Shown one piece after another: positions 10,872 to 22,243 of a stretch of 64,000 nt of DNA (position 1 is its first letter; the number at the start of each line of letters is the position of its first letter). Origin of the DNA: Stenotrophomonas sp. ZAC14D1_NAIMI4_1 (lineage in GTDB: Bacteria; Pseudomonadota; Gammaproteobacteria; Xanthomonadales; Xanthomonadaceae); contig NZ_CP026001.1 of the NCBI RefSeq assembly GCF_003086775.1, forward strand, positions 1,948,407-2,012,406, written 5' to 3'. Below the pieces are notes generated by a model that ran no database searches, was not told the DNA's origin, and saw nothing but the letters and a program-made list of their open reading frames with translations. A program made the translations under genes and the position numbers.

Positions 10872-10895
10872 AACCCCGCGCAAGCGGGGTTTTTT
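10872..10895 (+). terminator. Intrinsic terminator of the yajC-secD-secF operon
   Basis: Stem AACCCCGC / GCGGGGTT with loop GCAA, followed directly by six T residues. Confidence 0.9.
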
Positions 10896-11065
10896 GTTGG
10901 CAGGGCTGCGCCCTGGTACGCGTCATCGCATGCGCGCTGTCGCTCCCACGCTTCGCTGCGCGAACCGTGGGCCCCACTTACCAGCTCCCAGACCCCCGCC
11001 GCTTCGCGGCCGCCCCCTGACTCAGGGGGCTTTGCCCCAGACCGGTTCCGCGCGGCTGTGGGTGG

Positions 11066-11206
11066 GTGCCGACCGTTGGTCGGCACATCTGTCAGATATC
11101 GAATGAGTCATCCACGCATGGCGTGGATCTACCGTGTCGACCAACGTCGACACGATTTTCCCATCAGACATCGATATCCGACCCAGTGCCGACCAACGGT
11201 CGGCAC
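11066..11206. repeat. Cluster of four SMAG-type palindromes downstream of secF
   Basis: Units at 11066-11086 (GTGCCGACC / GGTCGGCAC), 11110-11132 (ATCCACGC / GCGTGGAT ending CTAC), 11134-11153 (GTGTCGAC / GTCGACAC) and 11186-11206 (the first unit's arms around AAC in place of GTT). The segment 11066-11132 recurs in reverse complement at 21924-21991. Together with the structured element that follows, these repeats fill most of the 720-bp gap between secF and fabV; I see no gene in it. Confidence 0.8.
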
Positions 11207-11253
11207 CCACCAGAGCAGAAAGCCGTTCGGACAGATCGCGGAGAACCGTCGAA

Positions 11254-11426
11254 GGCGGGGTGGGGCCGGTTGAGGGGGTGTGAGCGCCATGGATGGCGCG
11301 ACCAAGCCCCCATGGACGGGTTTACGGCGTCCCCCTCAACCGGACCCACCCCGCCAACCCGCAGGAACCCAGCTTTTGACGTTGACGTTGACGTTGATCC
11401 AGCAGGTGCAGGGCTGCAAGCCCTGC
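11254..11426 (+). repeat. Structured composite repeat, copy A (long hairpin, hexamer run, GCAGGGC palindrome)
   Basis: A 25-bp stem (11254-11278 with 11331-11355, one G-U-type mismatch) encloses a 52-nt interior containing the inner hairpin GCGCCAT-GG-ATGGCGC. A run of TTGACG hexamers (three, 11376-11393) follows, then the palindrome GCAGGGCT-GCA-AGCCCTGC at 11408-11426. The same ordered parts recur at 21656-21816 (inverted) and 22020-22206. Confidence 0.8.
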
Positions 11427-11565
11427 AAAACAAACCCCACCCTACGCCAGCGTCGGTTGTGCAATCTTCCCCCGCGCACTACGATCCTGCGGTTCGCGCG
11501 CACCTGCGCGCGCCCGCATTCCTGCTGAGCGCCCCGTGCGCCGCATCTGCCAACCCGAGGTATCC

Positions 11566-12825
11566 ATGGTCATCAAACCGCGCGTCCGCGGCTTCATCTG
11601 CGTCACCACCCACCCGACCGGCTGCGAGGCGGCGGTCAAGCAGCAGATCGACTACATCCGCGCCCGGCCGCCGATCCAGAACGGCCCCAAGCGCGTGCTG
11701 GTCATCGGTGCCTCCACCGGCTACGGCCTGGCTGCGCGCATCACCGCCGCGTTCGGCAGCGGCGCTGCCACCCTGGGCATCTTCTTCGAACGCCCGGGTA
11801 GTGAGACCAAGCCGGGCACGGCGGGCTGGTACAACTCCGCGGCGTTCCACAAGTACGCCGACGAAGCCGGCCTGTATGCCAAGAGCATCAACGGCGATGC
11901 CTTCTCCGATGAAGTGAAGGCCAAGGCCATCGAGATGATCAAGGCCGACCTCGGCCAGGTCGACCAGGTCGTCTACAGTCTGGCCGCGCCGCGCCGCAAG
12001 CACCCCAAGACCGGCGAGATCATCAGCTCCACGCTGAAGCCGATCGGCGAGCCGATCGTCCTGCGCGGCCTGGATACCGACAAGGAAGTGCTGACCGAGA
12101 CCCACCTGCAGCCGGCCACGGCTGAGGAGATCGCCGGCACCGTCGCGGTGATGGGTGGCGAAGACTGGCAGATGTGGATCGATGCGCTGTCCGAGGCCGG
12201 CGTGCTGGCCAACGGCTGCACCACCACCGCCTTCACCTACGTGGGCGAAGAGATCACCCAGGCGATCTACTGGAACGGTTCGATCGGCGCGGCCAAGAAG
12301 GACCTCGACGACAAGGTGCTGGGCCTGCGCGCATCGCTGGCGAAGATCGGCGGCGACGCGCGCGTGTCGGTGCTCAAGGCCGTGGTCACCCAGGCCAGCT
12401 CGGCTATTCCGACCATGCCGCTGTACCTGTCGCTGCTGTTCAAGGTGATGAAGGCGCAGGGCACGCACGAAGGCTGCATCGAGCAGCTCGACGTGCTGTA
12501 CGACATCCTCTACGGCGGCAAGGCGGACGGCGTGGCTGTCGACCGCCTGCGCCACGACCTCGTCGATGGCCAGGGCCGCACGGTCGCCCTGGTGGACGAG
12601 GAAGGCCGCCTGCGCGCCGATTACAAGGAAATGGCCCCGGAAGTGCAGGGCAAGGTGCTGGAGCTGTGGCCGCAGGTGACCAACGAAAACCTGTACGAGA
12701 TCAGCGACCTGGCCGGCTACAAGGCCGACTTCCTGCGCCTGTTCGGTTTCGGCGTGGACGGCGTGGACTACGAGGCCGACGTCAACCCGGACGTCAAGAT
12801 CGCCAACCTGGTCGACCTGACCTGA
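11566..12825 (+). CDS. fabV: Trans-2-enoyl-CoA/ACP reductase FabV (NADH)
   Basis: The last reductive step of each fatty-acid elongation cycle. A 419-residue protein, about twice the length of FabI and typical for FabV. It has the dinucleotide-binding motif [15 protein letters not shown] and the family active site Y-x8-K at Tyr235 and Lys244 ([11 protein letters not shown]); these positions match the published FabV numbering. The start at 11566 gives the family N-terminus [10 protein letters not shown]. The family is known to be insensitive to triclosan, so this gene is expected to give intrinsic tolerance. It stands alone between repeat clusters, without other fab genes. Confidence 0.96.
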
Positions 12826-12835
12826 CAACCCCGTG

Positions 12836-12898
12836 GTAGTGCCGGCCGCTGGCCGGCATTGCGGGTATGCGTGGTTGCCGGCCAGCGGCCGGCACTAC
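12836..12898. repeat. Inverted pair of SMAG repeats
   Basis: Head-to-head units GTAGTGCCGGCC... (12836-12858) and ...GGCCGGCACTAC (12876-12898) form a cruciform-capable pair between the convergent fabV and fimX genes. It may act as their shared 3'-end structure. Confidence 0.85.
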
Positions 12899-12917
12899 CA
12901 TGACGGCATTGCCGCGT

Positions 12918-14987
12918 TCAGCCGAAATCGAAGTTCATCGACGGCAGCGCCGGGCCGACGAACTCGCCCTGCACGTAATCGACGCCTGCGCTGAACAGCA
13001 GGGTCATCGAGTTCGCATCGCTGACGAACTCGGCCATGGTGCGGATGCCGGCTTCCTGCGCACGTGCGGTGATCTGGCTGATGCGGTCGATGTTCTCGCG
13101 GGTCGCGCCAAGGTCGCTGGTGAAGCCGCGATCCAGCTTGAGGAACTGCGGCTCGAAGTGGGCCAGCAGCTGGAACGAATCCAGCCCCGAACCGAACTGC
13201 TCCAGGCCGATCCGGCAACCCAGCGGGGCGACGTCGGCCAGGAACTGCTGGGCGGCGCGCAGGTGGGTGAACACCTTGACCTCCGGCGCATGCAGCCACA
13301 GCCGTTCGCCCGGTACGCCCTGGGCCTGCAGCTGCTGGCGCAGGGTGGCGATCATCTTCGGGTCGTCGAACGACTCGGGGGTGACCTTGACCAGGATCTG
13401 CGTGTCATGGCCGGCACGGGCGCGTGCGCCGAGCACGTCGATGGCCTTCGAGACCACCCAGCGGTTGATGTCGCCCAGCAGGCCGTGCTCCTCGGCAATG
13501 CCGAGGAAGGCGGTCGGGCTGAGCAGCTCGCCGTTGTGCTCCAAGCGCAGGTAGGCCTCGTACAGCTCCAGCGGCTCGCCCTGCAGGTTCAGCACCGGCT
13601 GGTAGTGCAGCTGGAAGCCGTCACCTGCCAGCGCCTCGCGGATGCGCGCGACCCAGCGCTGCACGCGCTCTTCCTCGATGCGGTCGACCGCAGCCGGGTC
13701 GAAGATGCGCGAAGTGTTGCCCAGCGCGGCCGCAGCCTGCGCGCACTCGCTGGCACGCGCCAGCACCTGGCCGATGCTGGCGATCTTTTCGCCCACCTGC
13801 ACGCCGCCGAGGCTGACGGTGACCGTGGCCGAGCGTGCGCCGATGGTGAACACGTGCGCGGCAAAGGCTTCGCGGATGCGCTCGGCCAGGGCCAGGGTCT
13901 GTGCGTAGGCGCCGGCCTGCAGCACGGCGAAGCTGTGTTCGCCGAAGCGCGCCATCTGCGCATCCTCGCCCACCACGTCAGCCAGCAGCGCGGCCATCGC
14001 GCCGATCAGGGTGTCGGCCGAGGCCAGGCCGATATCGGGGATCAGGCGCGCGTAGTGGTCCGGCTCGACCAGCAGCAGGCCGAACTGGCCCTCGCTGCGG
14101 CCGGCCTGGGCCACGGCATCTTCCACCTGCAGCATGAAGGTGGGGCGGTTGAGCAGGCCGGTGACCTGGTCGCGCTGGCGCAGGTCCTCGACCTCGCGGG
14201 CCAGTTCGGTGTCCAGTTCCAGCCGGCGGCGGAACACCACCTGCAGGCAGGATTCGCCTTCGTAGGTGGCGGCGGTGAATTCCATGGTGGCCGGGAACGC
14301 ACTGCCATCCTGGTGGCGCGCATCCAGCTGGTACTGCGGCGGCGGCGCCTCGCCACGGCTGAGTGACTTCAGCAGCTGCTTGAAGCTGTCCACGTGCTGG
14401 GCGGCGACCATGTCCAGCAGCGAGATGCCTTCGACCTCGTCGAAGTCCTCGTAGCCGAACATTTCCAGATAGGCATCGTTGGCACGGATGTGCATGCCTT
14501 CGTGGACATAGGCGATGGGGTCGCGCGAGGAGGCGATCAGCGCGTCGCAGCGGCGCTCGGTCTCGCGCATCTGCGCCTCGATGCGGCGCAGGCCACGGCG
14601 CGCCTGCAGGTCGACCCACTGGTCGCGGACCACCGCCAGCAGATGTTCATTGCGCTGGCGCAGCGCCAGGGCGCGGACGCCGTTGCTGCTGGCCTGGACC
14701 AGTTCGTCCTCGTCGATGTGATCGGCCAGCAGCACCAAGGGGATGTCCTTGCCGCTGGCGGCGATGTGCTGGGCCACCAGTGGCAGTGGGATGCCCTGCG
14801 ACGGCGAGGCCAGCACCAGGTCGATGGCCTGGCTGGCCAGCACCTGCGACAGCTCGGCCGAATCCTGTGGCCGCCACGGGCGCACGGCGATGCCGCTGTT
14901 GCGCAGGGTGCTGACGATGGCTTCGGCGTTCTCGCCGCTGTCATCGACGATCAGCAGCCGGATGGTGATGTCGTTCGCGTTCTGCAT
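12918..14987 (-). CDS. fimX: FimX-like degenerate GGDEF-EAL c-di-GMP receptor for type IV pili
   Basis: A 689-residue protein, as long as the Xanthomonas FimX I remember. Order: receiver-like domain (about 1-130, LLIVDDSGENAE), PAS (about 155-270), degenerate GGDEF (the motif reads GEHSF near 350) and degenerate EAL (EAY near 476; the catalytic-loop DDFGTG is replaced by EQFGSG). The loss of catalytic residues fits a c-di-GMP effector rather than an enzyme. In Xanthomonas, FimX binds c-di-GMP with its EAL domain and works with PilZ and PilB in pilus assembly; that role is inferred here by family. The start at 14987 is favoured by GGGGAG at good spacing. The ORF extends upstream to 15101 without a ribosome site. 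Confidence 0.85.
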   Translation of the reverse strand: MQNANDITIRLLIVDDSGENAEAIVSTLRNSGIAVRPWRPQDSAELSQVLASQAIDLVLASPSQGIPLPLVAQHIAASGKDIPLVLLADHIDEDELVQASSNGVRALALRQRNEHLLAVVRDQWVDLQARRGLRRIEAQMRETERRCDALIASSRDPIAYVHEGMHIRANDAYLEMFGYEDFDEVEGISLLDMVAAQHVDSFKQLLKSLSRGEAPPPQYQLDARHQDGSAFPATMEFTAATYEGESCLQVVFRRRLELDTELAREVEDLRQRDQVTGLLNRPTFMLQVEDAVAQAGRSEGQFGLLLVEPDHYARLIPDIGLASADTLIGAMAALLADVVGEDAQMARFGEHSFAVLQAGAYAQTLALAERIREAFAAHVFTIGARSATVTVSLGGVQVGEKIASIGQVLARASECAQAAAALGNTSRIFDPAAVDRIEEERVQRWVARIREALAGDGFQLHYQPVLNLQGEPLELYEAYLRLEHNGELLSPTAFLGIAEEHGLLGDINRWVVSKAIDVLGARARAGHDTQILVKVTPESFDDPKMIATLRQQLQAQGVPGERLWLHAPEVKVFTHLRAAQQFLADVAPLGCRIGLEQFGSGLDSFQLLAHFEPQFLKLDRGFTSDLGATRENIDRISQITARAQEAGIRTMAEFVSDANSMTLLFSAGVDYVQGEFVGPALPSMNFDFG

Positions 14988-15078
14988 GCACTGCTCCCCA
15001 ATCTGCAAATCTAGATACACGATGCGCGGCGGTCCGTCCATGCGCTCGCCCCTTGCGGGGTTGGAACGGCGATGCGGT

Positions 15079-16263
15079 TCACACCACGCTGCCGGCGGCA
15101 TGGCCGCTGGCCCAGGCCCACTGGAAGTTGTAGCCGCCCAGCCAACCGGTCACGTCCAGCACCTCGCCGACGAAGTGCAGGCCGGGCACGCGCTTGGACT
15201 CGAGGGTGGCCGAAGAGACCTCGGCCGTGTCCACCCCGCCGAGGGTGACTTCGGCGGTGCGGTAGCCTTCGGTGCCGCTGGCCACCAGCGGGAAAGCGCC
15301 CAGCAGCTGCCCGGCCTGGCGCAGCACCGGTTCGTCCAGCTGCCGCACCGGGCGGTCCGGCAGCCAGTGCTCGCACAGGCGCTGGGCCAGCCGCTTGGGC
15401 AGCACCTCGGCCAATACCGTGCGCAGTTCGGCCGCCGGCCGGTCGCGTTTCATCTGCCGCAGCCACTCGGTCGCGTCCTGGCCCGGCAACAGGTCCAGTT
15501 CCAGGGCATCGCCGGGTTGCCAGAACGAGGAGATCTGCAGGATGGCCGGCCCGCTGACGCCACGATGGGTCAGCAGCATGAAGTTCTGGAAGTGCTTGCC
15601 GTTGCAGCGCGCCTCGATGGGCAGGGCAACGCCACTGAGGTCGGCCAGCCGCTCCTGGTGGGTGCCACTGAGGGTCAGCGGTACCAGGCCGGCGCGGGTG
15701 GGCAGGATCTGGTGGCCGAACTGGCGGGCCACCTCGTAGCCGAAGCCGGTGGCGCCCATGCTGGGGATCGACAGGCCGCCGGTTGCCACCACCAGCGAGG
15801 CGCAATGGAACAGGCCATCGGTGGTGTGCACGCGGAAGCCATCGCTGCCGTGTTCGATGCGCTGCACGCTGCAGTCGGTGCGGATCTGCACGCCGGCTGC
15901 CTGGCACTCGTCCACCAGCATCTTCACGATCTGCTTGGACGAGACATCGCAGAACAGCTGCCCCAGTTCCTTTTCGTGATAGGCGATGCGGTGCTTGTCC
16001 ACCAGCTCGATGAAGTGCCACGGCGTGTAGCGCGCCAGGGCCGACTTGCAGAAATGCGGGTTGGCCGAGACGAAGTTGGCCGGCGTGGTGCCGGTGTTGG
16101 TGAAGTTGCAGCGCCCACCACCGGACATCAGGATCTTCTTTCCGACCTTGTTGGCGTGGTCGATCACCTGCACGTGGCGGCCGCGCTGGCCGGCCGTGAT
16201 CGCAGTCATCAGCCCGGCTGCGCCGGCACCGATGACCAGCACGTCGCAGCGGATCGTACTCAT
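15079..16263 (-). CDS. HI0933/YhiN-family FAD-dependent oxidoreductase
   Basis: A 394-residue flavoprotein. It has the N-terminal FAD site VLVIGAGAAGLMTAI, the family signature GKKILMSGGGRCNFTN and a C-terminal FAD segment with GLHFVGEVLDVTGWLGGYN. Family members have known structures but no settled reaction. Its ATG overlaps the stop of the upstream yaeQ-like gene by four bases (ATGA), so the two are translationally coupled on the minus strand. There is no signal peptide. The molecular function should be treated as unknown beyond being an oxidoreductase. Confidence 0.9.
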   Translation of the reverse strand: MSTIRCDVLVIGAGAAGLMTAITAGQRGRHVQVIDHANKVGKKILMSGGGRCNFTNTGTTPANFVSANPHFCKSALARYTPWHFIELVDKHRIAYHEKELGQLFCDVSSKQIVKMLVDECQAAGVQIRTDCSVQRIEHGSDGFRVHTTDGLFHCASLVVATGGLSIPSMGATGFGYEVARQFGHQILPTRAGLVPLTLSGTHQERLADLSGVALPIEARCNGKHFQNFMLLTHRGVSGPAILQISSFWQPGDALELDLLPGQDATEWLRQMKRDRPAAELRTVLAEVLPKRLAQRLCEHWLPDRPVRQLDEPVLRQAGQLLGAFPLVASGTEGYRTAEVTLGGVDTAEVSSATLESKRVPGLHFVGEVLDVTGWLGGYNFQWAWASGHAAGSVV

Positions 16264-16808
16264 GCCTTGGCGCGCTTGCGCCAGTCCGGAATGATGTCGA
16301 GCTGGATCTGGTCGTTGAGGAGCTGCACCTCGCCGTCCTGGATCAGCACGCTGAAACGCATGGCGCGCTGGATCTGCTGGCCCCACTGTTCGACGAAGGC
16401 GCCGTCGAGGTCGACCACCGACAGGTTGTCGAAGCGGGCAAGGCCCTTGCCCTGCTTGTTCCACCAGATCTCGGACGCGTTGCCGCCGTAGTTCACCACC
16501 TGCACCTGGCGGCTGCGGTTGCAGGCCTTGCGCACGCGCGACTCGTCTGGGTGGCCCAGGTCGATCCACTGCAGGATGTCGCCGGTGTAATCGTGGTTCC
16601 ACAGGTCCGGTTCGTCGTCGGTGCTCAGGCCGCGGCCGAACTCCAGGCGGTCGTCGGCATTGAGGGCGAAGGCGAGCAGGCGCACCATCAGGCGATCGTC
16701 GGTTTCCGACGGGTGCTGGGCCAGGGTCAGGTTGTGGGTCGCGTAGTAGCCGCGATCCATGTCGCTGATCTGCAACTCGGCCTTGCGGATGGTGGCGGTG
16801 AGGGCCAT
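16260..16808 (-). CDS. yaeQ: YaeQ-family protein
   Basis: A 182-residue cytosolic protein matching the YaeQ family along its whole length: MALTATIRKAELQISDMDRG at the start, the acidic core ESRVRKACNRS with VVNYGGNASEIWW, and the end LDIIPDWRKRAKA. YaeQ has a nuclease-like (PD-(D/E)XK) fold and was first linked to suppression of RfaH phenotypes in E. coli; its exact role is unknown. It overlaps the flavoprotein gene by four bases. The start at 16808 is the only one that fits the family. Confidence 0.92.
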   Translation of the reverse strand: MALTATIRKAELQISDMDRGYYATHNLTLAQHPSETDDRLMVRLLAFALNADDRLEFGRGLSTDDEPDLWNHDYTGDILQWIDLGHPDESRVRKACNRSRQVQVVNYGGNASEIWWNKQGKGLARFDNLSVVDLDGAFVEQWGQQIQRAMRFSVLIQDGEVQLLNDQIQLDIIPDWRKRAKA

Positions 16809-16930
16809 GGGGAATCCGTCGACTAAAGACGACCATGATAGAGGTTTGCTGTAAGGGTGTCCGTCGCCAGGGTGTCTGCCGGGCGTCAACGATGGCACTC
16901 TGGCGGTGCTTTCCCTCCTGCCGCCCGCGC

Positions 16931-17293
16931 ATGCCCCGTTTCCCGATCCGCCGTCTCCGTATCGCCGACGCCGACTTCGTCTGCAGCGTCCGCGCATCCG
17001 CGCCGGGTGCGCGGCCTGCCAGCGTGGTGTTCGCCGCCTATGCGCCCGGGCGCCGGCTGCGCATGCGCTTCAGCAGCGCCCCTGCGCAGCGGCGGCTGGC
17101 GGCTGAGGCCGGGCTGGACCACGGCAGCCTGCGCATGGCCGACGGCACCTGGATCAACCTGCACCGGCCTGCGGTGATGCGTGCGCTGGTCCTGGCGGCG
17201 CTGGGCGATGGGCTGGGCGACGGCATGGAGCTCGATGGCTGGCAGGTGCTGGACGCAGCCACGTTGCCGGCGCCTGGGCCCGCCACGCCATGA
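16931..17293 (+). CDS. Small conserved hypothetical protein upstream of a pseudouridine synthase
   Basis: I do not recognise this 120-residue protein. It is basic at the N-terminus (MPRFPIRRLRIADADF), has no signal peptide or transmembrane helix, and ends in PGPATP. Its stop overlaps the start of the pseudouridine synthase gene (ATGA at 17290), which argues that it is real and co-expressed. In-frame ATGs at 16835 and 16892 could lengthen it. Its link to RNA modification is only an inference from position. Confidence 0.6.
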   Translation: MPRFPIRRLRIADADFVCSVRASAPGARPASVVFAAYAPGRRLRMRFSSAPAQRRLAAEAGLDHGSLRMADGTWINLHRPAVMRALVLAALGDGLGDGMELDGWQVLDAATLPAPGPATP

Positions 17294-18177
17294 GCCTGCC
17301 CAGCCGCCTGCAGCTGCCGCCGGGTGACTGGGCGTGCCTGCTCGATGGGCTGTGCGCGCGCTTCCCGCGCATCGGCCGCGGGCAGTGGCAGGACCGTTTC
17401 GCCCGGGGCCGGGTGCAGGACGCGCAGGGCAGGGCGCTCGCGCCGGACCAGCCCTGGCAGGTCGGGCTGGACATCGTCTATTTCCGCGAGGTCAGCGACG
17501 AACCGCGCATCCCGTTCAGCGAGCGCATCGTGTACCAGGATGAGCACCTGCTAGTGGCCGACAAGCCGCACCACCTGCCGGTCACGCCCGCAGGCGGCTA
17601 CGTGCGCGAGACCCTGCTGGCGCGGCTGGTGGCGCGCACCGGCAACACGGACCTGGTGCCGCTGCACCGGCTTGACCGGCTCACCGCAGGGCTGGTGCTG
17701 TTCTCGCAGCGGCCCGATTCGCGCGATGCCTACCAGCGGCTGTTCCGCGAACGGCGTATCGACAAGACCTATGAGGCGCTGGCGCCCGCGTTGCCGGGCC
17801 TGCAGTTCCCGCTGGAGCGGCGGAGCCGGATCGTGGCGGGCGAGCCGTTCTTCCGCATGGCCGAGGCACCGGGTGAGCCGAACGCGCGCACCCGGGTGGA
17901 CGTGATCGCGGCCGACGCGGCGATCTGGCATTACCGGCTGCGGCCGGAAACCGGGCGCAAGCACCAGCTGCGCGTGCACATGGCGGCGCTGGGCGCACCG
18001 ATCCTCGGCGATGACCTGTATCCGCACCTACAGCCAGCGGCGGATCCGCTGCGGGCGCCGCCATTGCAGCTGCTGGCGCGGGCCCTGGCGTTCCAGGATC
18101 CGCTGGATGGGCAGCGCCGGGTGTTCAGCAGTGACCGCTCGCTGCAGGCGCCGGACAGCCCGGCCGACGCGGTCTGA
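17290..18177 (+). CDS. RluA-family RNA pseudouridine synthase
   Basis: A 295-residue enzyme that isomerises uridine to pseudouridine in rRNA or tRNA. The catalytic block PLHRLDRLTAGLVLF contains the essential aspartate of HRLDR. It also shows the RKHQLRVHMAALG segment and ILGDDLYP near the C-terminus. The N-terminal 80 residues resemble a reduced S4-like region (GRGQWQDRFARGRV). The target site cannot be assigned from sequence. It is coupled to the small upstream gene, and its stop codon is the first TGA of a 14-bp tandem repeat. Confidence 0.88.
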   Translation: MSLPSRLQLPPGDWACLLDGLCARFPRIGRGQWQDRFARGRVQDAQGRALAPDQPWQVGLDIVYFREVSDEPRIPFSERIVYQDEHLLVADKPHHLPVTPAGGYVRETLLARLVARTGNTDLVPLHRLDRLTAGLVLFSQRPDSRDAYQRLFRERRIDKTYEALAPALPGLQFPLERRSRIVAGEPFFRMAEAPGEPNARTRVDVIAADAAIWHYRLRPETGRKHQLRVHMAALGAPILGDDLYPHLQPAADPLRAPPLQLLARALAFQDPLDGQRRVFSSDRSLQAPDSPADAV

Positions 18178-18244
18178 TCAGCGGGGCCTGATCACTGCGG
18201 ATTGATCACTGCGGATTGATCACTGCGGATTGATCACCGCGGCT
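18175..18244. repeat. Five 14-bp tandem repeats built on TGATCA
   Basis: Units start at 18175, 18189, 18203, 18217 and 18231; three are exactly TGATCACTGCGGAT. TGATCA reads TGA on both strands, and the outer units supply the stop codons of the two convergent flanking genes (stops at 18175-18177 on plus and 18234-18236 on minus). Confidence 0.9.
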
Positions 18245-18722
18245 TGATCCGGGCCAGCCAGCGGTCCAGCTCGGCGGCGAACAGCTGGCGGTCGCGCTGG
18301 CCCAGCGGCGGCGGGCCACCGGTCTGCACGCCCGACCCGCGCAGCTCTTCCATGAAATTGCGCATCGACAGCCGCTCGGCCATGTTGTTGGCGGTGTACA
18401 GCTGGCCGCGCGGGTTCAGGGCGACGGCCTTCTTCTCCAGCACCAGCGCAGCCAGCGGGATGTCCTGGGTGACCACCAGGTCACCGGCGGCGACCCGCTC
18501 GACGATGACACTGTCGGCCACGTCCTGGCCCTGTGGCACCTGGAGGGAGCGCAGCCAGCGCGAGGGCGGTGTGCGGATCCACTGGTTGGCGACCAGGGTC
18601 AGCTCCAGGCCGACCCGCTCGGCGGCGCGGAACAGGATGTCGCGGATGACAACAGGGCAGGCGTCGGCATCGACCCAGATCCTCGGATGCCCGTGTTCAG
18701 CGGGGGTTTCAGCTTCAGTCAT
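18234..18722 (-). CDS. yaiI: YaiI/YqxD family protein (DUF188, UPF0178)
   Basis: A 162-residue protein of the DUF188 family, which has a PIN-like, nuclease-type fold. The N-terminal signature [14 protein letters not shown] carries the conserved acidic pair, and a second conserved stretch reads [14 protein letters not shown]. The C-terminal part contains [20 protein letters not shown]. There is no signal peptide. No activity has been established for the family as far as I know. It converges on the pseudouridine synthase gene, and its last codons lie inside the TGATCA repeat. Confidence 0.9.
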
Positions 18723-19026
18723 CTACCCGGTGTAGGGTAGGAAAAACCTGAATGGGGACTCGGGTTTAGCCTCGATCGGCTGCCAGCCCTTGTCACGCCT
18801 AGCCGGGCAGGGGATGCGGCTGAATGTCGGGGCTATCGCTTTTTCCTGAAAACACGCGTATCGTTCGACCCACTGTGTTTGCTAGGGTCACCGTGAATCG
18901 TGGCCTGGTGCAGTTGATCTCACGATCCGCTCATCGATCCGCTTTACCAACGCCTGCAACTCAGTCTCGGCCCCGATACCCGGTGGCTGCGATTTTTTTC
19001 AACATGTGTTTCAGGAGTTAGTAACT
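18723..19026. other. Gene-free 304-bp region holding the cold-shock gene leader
   Basis: I see no ORF or RNA gene. The region should hold the divergent promoters of yaiI and the cold-shock gene and probably a long csp leader. AGGAG precedes the csp ATG by about 9 nt. No convincing -35/-10 pair stood out. Confidence 0.5.
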
Positions 19027-19236
19027 ATGTCTGATCGTCAGACCGGCACTGTCAAGTGGTTCAACGACGCCAAGGGCTTCGGCTTCATCACCCCGGAAAG
19101 CGGCCCGGACCTGTTCGTGCACTTCCGTGCCATCCAGGGCACCGGCTTCAAGACCCTGCAGGAAGGCCAGAAGGTTACCTTCATCGCCGTCCAGGGCCAG
19201 AAGGGTATGCAGGCTGACCAGGTGCAGGCGGTCTAA
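19027..19236 (+). CDS. Cold-shock domain protein
   Basis: A 69-residue single CSD protein that binds single-stranded RNA and DNA. The nucleic-acid-binding motifs RNP1 (KGFGFI, inside [12 protein letters not shown]) and RNP2 (LFVHF) are both present. The start at 19027 follows AGGAGTTAG. A strong terminator lies 27 nt after the stop, so it is a monocistronic unit. The divergent gap upstream leaves room for a long 5' untranslated leader, the usual place for cold-shock control. Which CspA paralogue it is cannot be told from sequence alone. Confidence 0.95.
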
Positions 19237-19263
19237 TCCGTCTGCTACCGTTTGGTAGCCAGA

Positions 19264-19296
19264 AACGCCGGAAGCGAAAGCTTCCGGCGTTTTTTT
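19264..19296 (+). terminator. Intrinsic terminator of the cold-shock gene
   Basis: A perfect 12-bp stem AACGCCGGAAGC / GCTTCCGGCGTT with a GAAA tetraloop and a run of T residues. Confidence 0.95.
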
Positions 19297-19356
19297 ATGC
19301 GCGCGATGCATGCACCCCCGCGCGGTACGATGCGCGCTTCCCCTAGGAGCCCACCC

Positions 19357-20046
19357 ATGCGCATCGTCCACCACCTGGAAAACTCCCGTTCGCTGCGCGT
19401 GCTGTGGATGCTGGAGGAGCTGGGGCTGGACTACGAGCTGCGGCGCTACCCGCGCGATCCGAAGACGCTGCTGGCGCCGCCGGAGCTGCGCCAGGTCCAC
19501 CCGCTCGGCAAATCGCCGGTGCTGCAGGATGGCGATCTGGTGCTGGCCGAGTCCGGGGCGATCCTCGATTACCTCGTCGACCGCTACGACACCGGGCGGC
19601 AGTTCTCGCCGTCGCCGGTACCGGCCGACGGTGCCGAGCGCATCGACTACCGCTACTGGCTGCATTACGCCGAAGGTTCGGCGATGCCGCCGCTGCTGCT
19701 GACCCTGGTGATCGGCCGCATCCGCAGCGCGCCGATGCCGTTCTTCGCCCGGCCGATTGCCCGCGGCATTGCCGACAAGGCCGAGCGCAGCTTCATTGGT
19801 CCGCAGCGTCGCCTGCACCTGGATTGGATGGAGCGGAGGCTGGCCGAAAGCCCCTGGTTTGCCGGTGATCGCTTCACCGCGGCCGACATCCAGATGAGTT
19901 TCCCGATCCAGGCGGCTGCGGCCCGTGGCGGTGGCCTGGACGACAAGCCGGCCCTGCGCAGCTTCCTTGCGCGCATCGGCGAGCGCCCGGCCTACCGGCG
20001 CGCCGAGGCGCACGGCGGCGCCCTGCAGGCCCTGCGCGGCGATTGA
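19357..20046 (+). CDS. Glutathione S-transferase family protein
   Basis: A 229-residue cytosolic GST. The N-terminal thioredoxin-like domain (1-80) has the active-site region NSRSLRVLWMLEELGL and the cis-proline motif GKSPVL followed by ESGAILDYL. The C-terminal all-helical domain has the hydrophobic-staple region FTAADIQMSFP. The start at 19357 follows AGGAG. selO begins 31 nt downstream and may be co-transcribed, which would put two redox or stress functions together. The substrate is unknown. Confidence 0.93.
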   Translation: MRIVHHLENSRSLRVLWMLEELGLDYELRRYPRDPKTLLAPPELRQVHPLGKSPVLQDGDLVLAESGAILDYLVDRYDTGRQFSPSPVPADGAERIDYRYWLHYAEGSAMPPLLLTLVIGRIRSAPMPFFARPIARGIADKAERSFIGPQRRLHLDWMERRLAESPWFAGDRFTAADIQMSFPIQAAAARGGGLDDKPALRSFLARIGERPAYRRAEAHGGALQALRGD

Positions 20047-20077
20047 GGAGCGGCCCTGCCGCCCCCATCCTGCAGGG

Positions 20078-21643
20078 ATGGATACCAGCGCCCCCCGTTT
20101 CGACAACCGCCTGCTGAGCGCCCTGCCGGGCGACCCCGAGAGCGGCCCGCGCCGCCGCGAAGTGCGCGGCGCCGCATGGTCATCGGTGATGCCGACCCCC
20201 GTGGCCGCCCCCACGTTGCTGGCCTGGTCGCCGGACGTGGCCGCGCTGCTGGGCCTGGAAGCGGCAGACGTGGAAGGCGAGGACTTCGCCCAGGTATTTG
20301 GCGGCAACGCGCTGTACGCAGGCATGCAGCCATGGGCAGCCAACTACGGTGGCCACCAGTTCGGCCATTGGGCGGGCCAGCTGGGCGATGGCCGGGCGAT
20401 TTCGCTGGGTGAACTGGTGGCGGCCGATGGCCGGCACTGGGAGCTGCAGCTGAAGGGCGCCGGGCCGACCCCGTACTCGCGCGGCGCCGATGGCCGTGCC
20501 GTGCTGCGCTCGTCCATCCGCGAGTTCCTGTGCAGCGAAGCGATGCATCACCTGGGCGTGCCGACCACGCGCGCCTTGTCGCTGGTCGGCACGGGCGAAG
20601 ACGTGGTGCGCGACATGTTCTACGACGGCCACCCGCGCGCCGAGCCGGGCGCCATCGTCTGCCGTGTCGCGCCGTCGTTCATCCGCTTCGGCACCTTCGA
20701 ACTGCCGGCATCCCGCGGCGAGACCGCGCTGCTGAAGCAGCTGGCCGAGGCCTGCATCGCCCGCGACTTCCCCGAGCTGCAGGGCGAGGGCGAGGCGTTG
20801 TACGGCGACTGGTTCGCGCAGATCGCCGTGCGCACCGCCGAGCTGATGGCGCACTGGATGCGGGTCGGTTTCGTGCACGGAGTGATGAACACCGACAACC
20901 TGTCCGTGCTGGGCCTGACCATCGACTACGGCCCGTACGGCTGGGTGGAGGATTACGCCCCGGACTGGACGCCCAACACCACCGACGCCCAGGGCCGCCG
21001 CTACCGCTTCGGCACCCAGCCACAGGTGGCGTACTGGAACCTCAACCGGCTTGCGCAGGCACTGTCGCCGCTGTTCGCCGACGTGCAGCCGCTGCAGGCC
21101 GGTCTGGCCGCGTTCCAGTCCACCTTCGTCGCCTGCACGCGGCGCGATGCCGCCGCCAAGCTGGGGCTGGCCGCCGCCGATGACGAAGACCTGCAGCTCT
21201 ACCTGCGCTGGCAGCAGTTGCTGCAGGACGGCGGCATGGACATGACGTTGGCCTGGCGCGCGTTGATGCGCGTGGACGCGGAGGCACCGGATGCGGGTGT
21301 GCTCGAAGCGGTGTACTACGACGAAGCACGCCGGCAGGCGGTGCAGGCGCCGCTGCAGCAGTGGTTGCAGGACTACGCCGCGCGGCTGCGTGTCGATCCG
21401 CTGGCGGCCGATGCGCGCCTGGCGAAGATGGCGGCGGCCAATCCGCTGTACGTGCTGCGCAACTGGTTGGCGCAGGAAGCGATCGACCGGGCGGAGCAGG
21501 GCGACCTGGGGGGCGTACACGCGCTGCAGGATGTGCTGCGTGACCCGTACACGGAACGCCCGGGGCTGGAGCACTATGCCGGGAAGCGGCCGGCGTGGGC
21601 GGATGACCGCGCAGGCTGCTCGATGCTGTCCTGCAGTTCGTAG
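20078..21643 (+). CDS. selO: Protein adenylyltransferase SelO (YdiU)
   Basis: A 521-residue pseudokinase-fold enzyme that AMPylates protein hydroxyl groups and is linked in E. coli to redox homeostasis and glutathionylation. The conserved blocks GGHQFGHWAGQLGDGRAI and LKGAGPTPYSRGADGRAV and the catalytic-loop equivalent FVHGVMNTDN are present. The protein ends in CSMLSCSS, with cysteine at the place used for selenocysteine in eukaryotic SelO. The start at 20078 is close to the end of the GST gene. A repeat block begins right after the stop. Confidence 0.94.
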   Translation: MDTSAPRFDNRLLSALPGDPESGPRRREVRGAAWSSVMPTPVAAPTLLAWSPDVAALLGLEAADVEGEDFAQVFGGNALYAGMQPWAANYGGHQFGHWAGQLGDGRAISLGELVAADGRHWELQLKGAGPTPYSRGADGRAVLRSSIREFLCSEAMHHLGVPTTRALSLVGTGEDVVRDMFYDGHPRAEPGAIVCRVAPSFIRFGTFELPASRGETALLKQLAEACIARDFPELQGEGEALYGDWFAQIAVRTAELMAHWMRVGFVHGVMNTDNLSVLGLTIDYGPYGWVEDYAPDWTPNTTDAQGRRYRFGTQPQVAYWNLNRLAQALSPLFADVQPLQAGLAAFQSTFVACTRRDAAAKLGLAAADDEDLQLYLRWQQLLQDGGMDMTLAWRALMRVDAEAPDAGVLEAVYYDEARRQAVQAPLQQWLQDYAARLRVDPLAADARLAKMAAANPLYVLRNWLAQEAIDRAEQGDLGGVHALQDVLRDPYTERPGLEHYAGKRPAWADDRAGCSMLSCSS

Positions 21644-21655
21644 GGGGTTTCTTCT

Positions 21656-21816
21656 GCAGGGCTTGCAGCCCTGCACCTGCCGAAGCAACAGCAAAAGCGT
21701 GCTATCCGTGGGATGGCGGGGTGGGTCCGGTTGAGGGGGACGCCGTAAACCCATCCATGGGGGCTTGGTCGCGGCATCCATGCCGCTCACACCCCCTCAA
21801 CCGGACCCACCCCGCC
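21656..21816 (-). repeat. Structured composite repeat, copy B (inverted)
   Basis: Read on the minus strand it shows the same order as copy A: a perfect 25-bp stem (21715-21739 with 21792-21816), a 52-nt interior, degenerate TTGCTG/TTGCTT hexamers, then a GCAGGGCT palindrome (21656-21674). The inner hairpin reads GCGGCAT-GG-ATGCCGC, a compensatory change relative to copies A and C. Confidence 0.8.
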
Positions 21817-21877
21817 TTCGACAGTTTTCTGCGGTCTGTTGGAACCTGCTGCTGTTGGTGCCAGCTGCTGTTGGTGG

Positions 21878-21991
21878 GTGCCGACCGTTGGTCGGCACGG
21901 GGTCGGATATCCCGGCATTACGAGTAGATCCACGCCATGCGTGGATGAATTCATTCGATATCTGACAGATGTGCCGACCAACGGTCGGCAC
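21878..21991. repeat. Three SMAG-type palindromes between composite repeats B and C
   Basis: Units at 21878-21898 and 21971-21991 (GTGCCGACC / GGTCGGCAC arms, differing GTT/AAC centres) flank a GTAG-headed unit at 21924-21946. 21924-21991 is the near-exact reverse complement of 11066-11132. Confidence 0.8.
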
Positions 21992-22019
21992 CCACCAACA
22001 GCCGCGTGAACCTGTCAGA

Positions 22020-22206
22020 GGCGGGGCGGTGTGGGTGGGCAGGACCGTTGGCGCCATGGATGGCGCCATCGAGCCCCCATGGACGGGTTTACGGCGTGTC
22101 CTGCCCACCCACACCGTCCCGCCCAGCCAGCAGAAAGCCAGAGCCGCTCTGGCCTTTGACGTTGACGTTGCCCTGGCTCGAAGCAGGTGCAGGGCGGCAG
22201 CCCTGC
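22020..22206 (+). repeat. Structured composite repeat, copy C
   Basis: A 26-bp stem (22020-22045 with 22098-22123) whose sequence is unlike the stem of copies A and B but is again self-complementary with one wobble. It encloses a 52-nt interior nearly identical to copy A from its inner hairpin onward. Two TTGACG hexamers (22156-22167) and a GCAGGGC-GGCA-GCCCTGC palindrome (22189-22206) follow. Confidence 0.8.
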
Positions 22207-22243
22207 CAACACCCCCACCTACAACGATGGTATTACCTATTCA

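Follow-up and report, generated by a model that had tools for sequence, protein, structure and literature searches.

The stretch of Stenotrophomonas sp. ZAC14D1_NAIMI4_1 DNA analyzed here, 64,000 nucleotides in length and hereafter called the window, contains three copies (A, B, and C) of a long-stemmed repeat, and the question raised by this locus is what kind of element they represent and in which form it is subject to selection. Inspection of the sequence and a repeat search showed that the coordinates and strands assigned to the copies by the sequence-only reading were exact (Table 1), with outer stems of 25, 25, and 26 bp (A, B, and C) and an interior of 52 nt in all three. As that reading also had it, one outer stem is common to copies A and B and another is found in copy C, and the change from GCGCC/GGCGC to GCGGC/GCCGC in copy B is a real compensated swap. 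The outer stems present one mismatch in copy A and one G-T wobble in copy C. The element strands gave fold z-scores of -6.3, -8.0, and -9.9 (A, B, and C), and none of 200 shuffles was equally stable. In a covariance-model search of the window at E <= 1, copies A, B, and C were the only matches; the model was built from copies of the host genome and fits the three by construction. In the window, no match at the gathering score was obtained for any Rfam family. The matches to Ysr224 and to microRNA families given by permissive Rfam scans were chance-like matches to long hairpins, often on the opposite strand, and were rejected as spurious. Also, a cspA thermoregulator-like match (76.4 bits, just under the gathering score of 78) was seen at 18933-19294, and an array of 14-bp units (GCGGATTGATCACT-like, with five overlapping 28-nt copies) at 18169-18252.

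Table 1. Coordinates of the three elements and of associated features (window positions, except for insert Y).
Feature	Position	Strand	Characteristics
Copy A, whole element	11254..11355	+	Outer stem 11254-11278 with 11331-11355; core 11279-11330; 95.1 bits (covariance model)
Copy A, hairpin 1	11279..11304	+	Loop ATGGAT 11289-11294; tandem G.A pairs below the stem; structure from covariation
Copy A, hairpin 2	11306..11328	+	Loop ATGGAC 11312-11317; 5-nt bulge TTTAC; structure from covariation
Copy B, whole element	21715..21816	-	Core 21740-21791; outer-stem type as in copy A; 94.6 bits (covariance model)
Copy B, hairpin 1	21766..21791	-	Loop ATGGAT 21776-21781; compensated GCGGC/GCCGC stem
Copy B, hairpin 2	21742..21764	-	Loop ATGGAT 21753-21758
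Copy C, whole element	22020..22123	+	Outer stem 22020-22045 with 22098-22123; core 22046-22097; 99.2 bits (covariance model)
Copy C, hairpin 1	22046..22071	+	Loop ATGGAT 22056-22061
Copy C, hairpin 2	22073..22095	+	Loop ATGGAC 22079-22084
Terminator-like hairpin and T run	10872..10895	+	Behind putative secF, upstream of the half cassette; read by eye
Half cassette, copy A only	10907..11438	.	From comparison with 12 relatives
Promoter-like TTGTGC-17 nt-TACGAT	11457..11485	+	Before putative fabV; read by eye
Head-to-head cassette	21640..22216	.	Copy B (-), centre 21817-22019 with SMAG-type palindromes, copy C (+), outer tails
Insert Y loci	Host genome, L290-L303		For example L291, around 1501-1575

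The core of the element forms a three-way junction, and each of its two hairpins is capped by a CANGGANG loop that varies mainly at the N positions. In order, the first arm of the outer stem is followed by hairpin 1, a single unpaired A, hairpin 2, GT, and the second arm of the outer stem. The foot of hairpin 1 is C-G or U-A, the pairs below its stem are tandem G.A or standard, and its loop is ANGGAN; hairpin 2 consists in most copies of GCY, three pairs, the loop ANGGAN, the bulge TTYRC, and RGC. The loops of both hairpins had gone unrecognized in the sequence-only reading, which also listed GGGTTTACGGCGT as a constant tail; in the fold this tail is not unpaired, since its GGG closes hairpin 2, its GGC closes the base of the same hairpin, and TTTAC is the bulge between them.

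The claim that the elements are structured and covarying is borne out by compensatory changes in two alignments. In the first, made of 37 diverse copies of the host genome, 20 of the 27 pairs changed on both sides and 96.7% of the cells were paired; the covariation score was 0.638 for the proposed fold versus 0.055-0.095 for slid versions, in which at most 47.1% of the cells were paired. In the second, comprising 25 loci from 25 other genomes and a 25-pair version of the fold, 98.4% of the cells were paired and 20 of the 25 pairs changed on both sides. The tandem position of hairpin 1 was G.A/A.G in 12 of the 37 copies (copy A type included) and standard pairs in the other 25. The outer stem varies almost freely yet stays complementary, with a median arm identity of 57% and a minimum of 17% among 80 distinct stems that had been selected for pairing. 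The core structure rests on covariation, because the minimum-energy folds of only 9 of the 105 distinct host-genome copies passed a strict test of the core; folding of single sequences recovers the outer stem, whereas hairpin 2 is often displaced.

The three copies are thus all present, but the family is by no means confined to them. In a BLAST-type search of the 4.70 Mb genome with copy A, which gave 148 candidates at first look, the 40 candidates scored were all full-length copies, and the core pattern CATGGAYGGGTTTACGGCGT, with up to three mismatches, matched 112 times versus none in a reversed control. The covariance model R1, built from the 37 diverse copies, gave at least 147 matches at E <= 0.01 (best 150 of 6588 candidates scored), about nine of which score weakly, several of them owing to inserts. 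The tests of layout and strand rest on 117 copies, not on 147.

These inserts lie in the loops of the two hairpins. Insert Y, a 75-nt structured sequence, gave 14 strong matches in the genome (40 of 60 candidates scored), all of them in the hairpin 2 loop, so at least 14 copies have this hairpin interrupted. It sits right after CATGG or a variant (CAGGG, CAAGG), at the same position in all, and its hosts carry several different outer stems. Insert X, which forms several hairpins and has its own AGGAC/AGGACA loops, is located in the hairpin 1 loop; among the collected loci it occurs in L066, L086, and L090, in L156 of a relative, and in a shorter form in L051. Both inserts are present together in one element (L086/L300).

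The mispairs of the outer stem indicate which strand is folded. If mutation is strand-symmetric, G.T and A.C are expected to be equally frequent, and an excess of G.T over A.C implies selection on one strand in its folded, single-stranded form. In 76 distinct 24-bp stems of the host genome, taken beside the core irrespective of pairing, the non-Watson-Crick pairs were 56 G.T, 9 A.C, and 55 others; in 61 distinct stems from the 83 hits of named records, chosen without rewarding G.T, they were 77 G.T, 9 A.C, and 62 others. Equality of G.T and A.C gave binomial p values of 2e-9 and 1e-14, respectively, for pairs that are not independent. Also, the element strand was more stable than its complement in 76 of 105 host-genome copies and in 53 of 60 others. 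The form under selection is therefore the single-stranded element strand, either RNA or, with lower probability, DNA, and the earlier proposal of selection or copying as a folded form is supported. Since G.T is a well tolerated mismatch in DNA too, the strand bias alone is no proof of RNA.

The sequence-only reading knew of no described element of this form. However, the architecture is that of the TwoAYGGAY RNA (RF01731), published in 2010 by Weinberg et al. and rated in their table as probably RNA and probably not cis-regulatory (PMC2864571). Binding of CsrA to this RNA was proposed in 2014 by Gardner and Eldai, who explained the paired motifs by the CsrA dimer and named the tandem G.A as a feature (PMC4333381); the CsrA-binding idea is thus already published and is not new here. 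The elements share with TwoAYGGAY a poorly conserved outer stem around two hairpins with AYGGAY terminal loops, which are present in copies A, B, and C and in most host-genome copies (many are ANGGAN elsewhere), and the tandem G.A, seen in the 12 aligned copies mentioned above. Close head-to-head pairs of RF01731 matches were also found in other genomes, namely G158 (one), G269 (two), and G263 (one, below the cut-off).

The RF01731 model itself gave 17 matches in the host genome at E <= 10 (best 150 of 317 candidates scored), which all fall on element copies, the 12 best being full-length and copy A scoring 24.1 bits. The alignment runs end to end, from model position 1 to 168, with matching outer stem, loops, and linker, yet the best score (37.8 bits) stays below the gathering cut-off of 43 bits, and no match reached that cut-off in the window. 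We therefore consider the element as a TwoAYGGAY-like variant and not as a member of the family. It differs by these scores, by its high copy number, and by hairpin 2, whose lower part is not paired in the alignment as in the RF01731 model but forms a shorter stem with the TTTAC bulge. In a survey of 274 genomes of the class, RF01731 passed its cut-off in at least 13 (nine candidates scored; the host genome, matched separately at weaker scores, was missed there) and R1 matched in at least 47 (17 candidates scored; host genome included). Only three genomes (G073, G186, and G218) are common to both lists, so the two look like sister groups. Our literature searches gave no published description of the dispersed high-copy form, with 0 to at least 147 copies within the genus, of the head-to-head cassettes outside genes, of the partners with unlike outer stems, or of the two structured inserts in GGA loops.

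The loops give key information on a possible ligand. In 61 distinct host-genome cores, collected with a motif that partly favours CANGGANG, both hairpins carry C-A-N-G-G-A-N-G with letters changing at N (T/A and T/G in hairpin 1; T/G/A/C and C/T/A in hairpin 2). An independent test was given by 56 segments from outside Stenotrophomonas (61 minus 5 of that genus), found with a search pattern that covered only hairpin 2 and its flank: hairpin 1 contained GGA in 55 of them and the full CANGGANG in 41. For the global regulator CsrA, SELEX gave the consensus RUACARGGAUGU, with GGA in a hairpin loop (PMC4347634). Many hairpin 2 sequences contain TACANGGANGTA, and GTACAGGGATGT at locus L107 is an exact match to this consensus. 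Sites of the CANGGANG or RUACARGGAUGU type are thus present in hairpin loops, as in the sRNAs that sequester CsrA/RsmA. The host genome has one csrA match, with an intact reading frame. Co-occurrence with csrA was uninformative in the class (43 of 47 element-bearing versus 192 of 227 other genomes; among the former, G008, G069, and G100 were listed negatives and G196 was counted negative by its absence from the match list).

Several GGA-loop hairpins are also found in CsrB/CsrC and RsmX/Y/Z, and the elements would resemble these sRNAs in function; they differ by having two sites, a long outer stem, and a dispersed repeat organization, as opposed to one or two regulated genes. Xanthomonas, the host of another such sRNA named RsmU, belongs to the same family as the present host. 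RsmU sequesters RsmA and has GGA motifs, but it is described as a single gene derived from an mRNA; the same report states that no homologue of CsrB, RsmY, RsmZ, and similar sRNAs was found in Xanthomonas (PMC7694677).

In the host genome, none of the 117 copies lies inside a gene predicted by a codon-usage gene caller, as the sequence-only reading had supposed for the copies of the window; this intergenic location applies to the host genome. In the loci of other genera, a mechanical ORF check placed 22 of 83 copies inside ORFs of at least 100 codons, a result on which we do not rely because such ORFs are unreliable in G+C-rich DNA. Among neighbouring copies less than 800 bp apart, 41 of 42 pairs are arranged as - then +, one as + +, and none as + then -. 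Cassette-like stretches of ~500-600 bp recur in the genome (query ~11741-12323, roughly 75-82% identity), and among 36 cassette centres listed, many contain SMAG-type palindromes and some terminator-like hairpins. Partners with a common outer stem made up 1 of 41 pairs versus 9.1 expected, with none of 5000 random pairings as low, and there was no such avoidance for core identity (P 0.086); the avoidance is weaker than it appears, because cassettes may be copied as units. In other genera the arrangement is not always head to head, 13 close pairs comprising six - +, three + -, and four of the same orientation. Also, another genome of the class has six same-orientation copies with a spacing of ~227 bp (G454:C1:94432-95644), and a similar tandem array of four was seen in an uncultured Saccharophagus (L180; survey of 72 of the 80 listed loci).

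The SMAG palindromes adjoin and separate the copies, and the sequence-only reading was right to keep the two apart. Like the elements, these GTAG-headed REPs are intergenic, abundant, and present in the same cassettes (PMC2613905, PMC3733652); the element is a three-way junction of ~100 nt without a GTAG head, and no GTAG beside a palindrome of 20-40 bp was found in the sequence of the copies. In the window (11051-11212 and 21857-22012), palindromes of the types GTGCCGACC...GGTCGGCAC and GTAGATCCACGC...GCGTGGAT adjoin the copies, and in many cases CTGTCAGATATCG comes next. Most copies of this genome also have a CTGTC motif directly beside their outer stems.

The place of copy A, between secF and fabV, illustrates gain and loss (gene names, including selO, are our reading of ORF translations). 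Among 12 relatives, four carry a full pair there (L143, L145, L146, and L148), two carry one element like the host genome (L144 and L147), and six carry none (L140, L141, L142, L149, L150, and L151). The empty site in L140 keeps a terminal hairpin-like piece, and no clear target duplication was visible by eye. Flanked by a terminator-like hairpin on the secF side and a promoter-like sequence on the fabV side, the cassette is probably absent from the mRNAs of both genes. The promoter-like letters are similar in most of the relatives read, with or without the cassette, except L151; no promoter of the cassette's own was identified at this place.

The element is variable at larger scale as well. 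R1 counts in 14 relatives of the genus were 0, 0, 1, 31, 35, 43, 64, 75, 81, 82, 93, 115, 122, and 136, all lower bounds (150 candidates scored per genome); the element is not essential, since it is absent from two congeners and present once in another. One genome of another genus in the family gave no R1 match. In a sample of the phylum, R1 matched in 31 of 398 genomes, all 31 in the same class. A search of named records gave at least 119 stretches, 80 of them listed, with the element in Xanthomonas, Arenimonas, Microbulbifer, Marinobacter, Rheinheimera, Shewanella, Alteromonas, Yersinia, and Methylotuvimicrobium, and a Stenotrophomonas maltophilia record (L204) contains a 5′ outer arm identical to that of copy C. 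Carriage by phages is rare (seven stretches with the element in a viral collection).

Such variation is also what non-autonomous mobile DNA of the REPIN or MITE type would show, a transposase recognizing the single-stranded DNA fold on one strand and the GGA loops being its contacts and not CsrA sites. The cassette-sized repeats, the presence and absence at the secF-fabV place, the range from 0 to at least 147 copies in the genus, the head-to-head pairs with SMAG REPs in many centres, and the four Y1-type transposase genes of the genome all fit this explanation. Nevertheless, the linkage to a transposase such as a RAYT, put forward as a check by the sequence-only reading, was not seen: none of the four Y1 loci (~3.3 kb) carries the element, with a single chance-level match (E 0.55). 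The elements also have no GTAG head, no clear target duplication was seen by eye at the secF-fabV place, and the loop constraint, recurring in many genera, fits an RNA-binding motif in detail. We therefore regard mobile DNA of this type as unlikely, although it is the most serious competitor.

It is still less probable that the elements are cis-acting RNAs in the untranslated regions of their neighbours, each controlled by CsrA binding. Rfam does class RF01731 as Cis-reg, and the median distance from the 3′ end of the 117 copies to the predicted gene that follows is 88 bp; however, that gene is on the opposite strand in 72 of the 117, the secF-fabV element is upstream of the promoter-like sequence, and the 2010 rating mentioned above points the other way. 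Finally, quasi-palindrome correction, that is template switching in replication, can produce compensated stem changes, and could alone keep the arms complementary without selection on the fold. It predicts neither the excess of G.T over A.C on one strand (56:9 and 77:9), nor fixed loop letters, nor a conserved bulge, and, already disfavoured by the strand bias, it is in our opinion very improbable.

The best reading of the element, which we consider reasonably probable, is thus a TwoAYGGAY-like, CsrA-binding RNA. Several results count against it, namely the place of the secF-fabV cassette, the absence or near-absence of the element in three congeners, the low share of minimum-energy folds that recover the core, and the inserts that interrupt hairpin 2. 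We infer that the copies are transcribed and that each of them, once transcribed, would most likely bind and sequester CsrA in the manner of CsrB and RsmZ. They have probably spread through the duplication of complete head-to-head cassettes into intergenic sites, which gives the repeats the look of a family of dispersed and partly selfish CsrA decoys. That the family as a whole acts as a sponge would be a further step. More tentatively, we hypothesize a mobile RNA element, varying in copy number and spread as head-to-head cassettes, whose summed copies might set the level of free CsrA in bacteria without known classical Csr sRNAs, and whose GGA loops also host the two structured insert modules.

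With two sites per copy, the 147 or more copies would provide up to ~290 potential CsrA sites. If they are expressed, the copy number of the repeat would be a heritable setting of CsrA activity, differing between close relatives (0 to at least 147). Also, for the TwoAYGGAY family, an orphan since 2010, the repeats provide an extensive natural data set, assign a strand, and suggest a function that can be tested directly.
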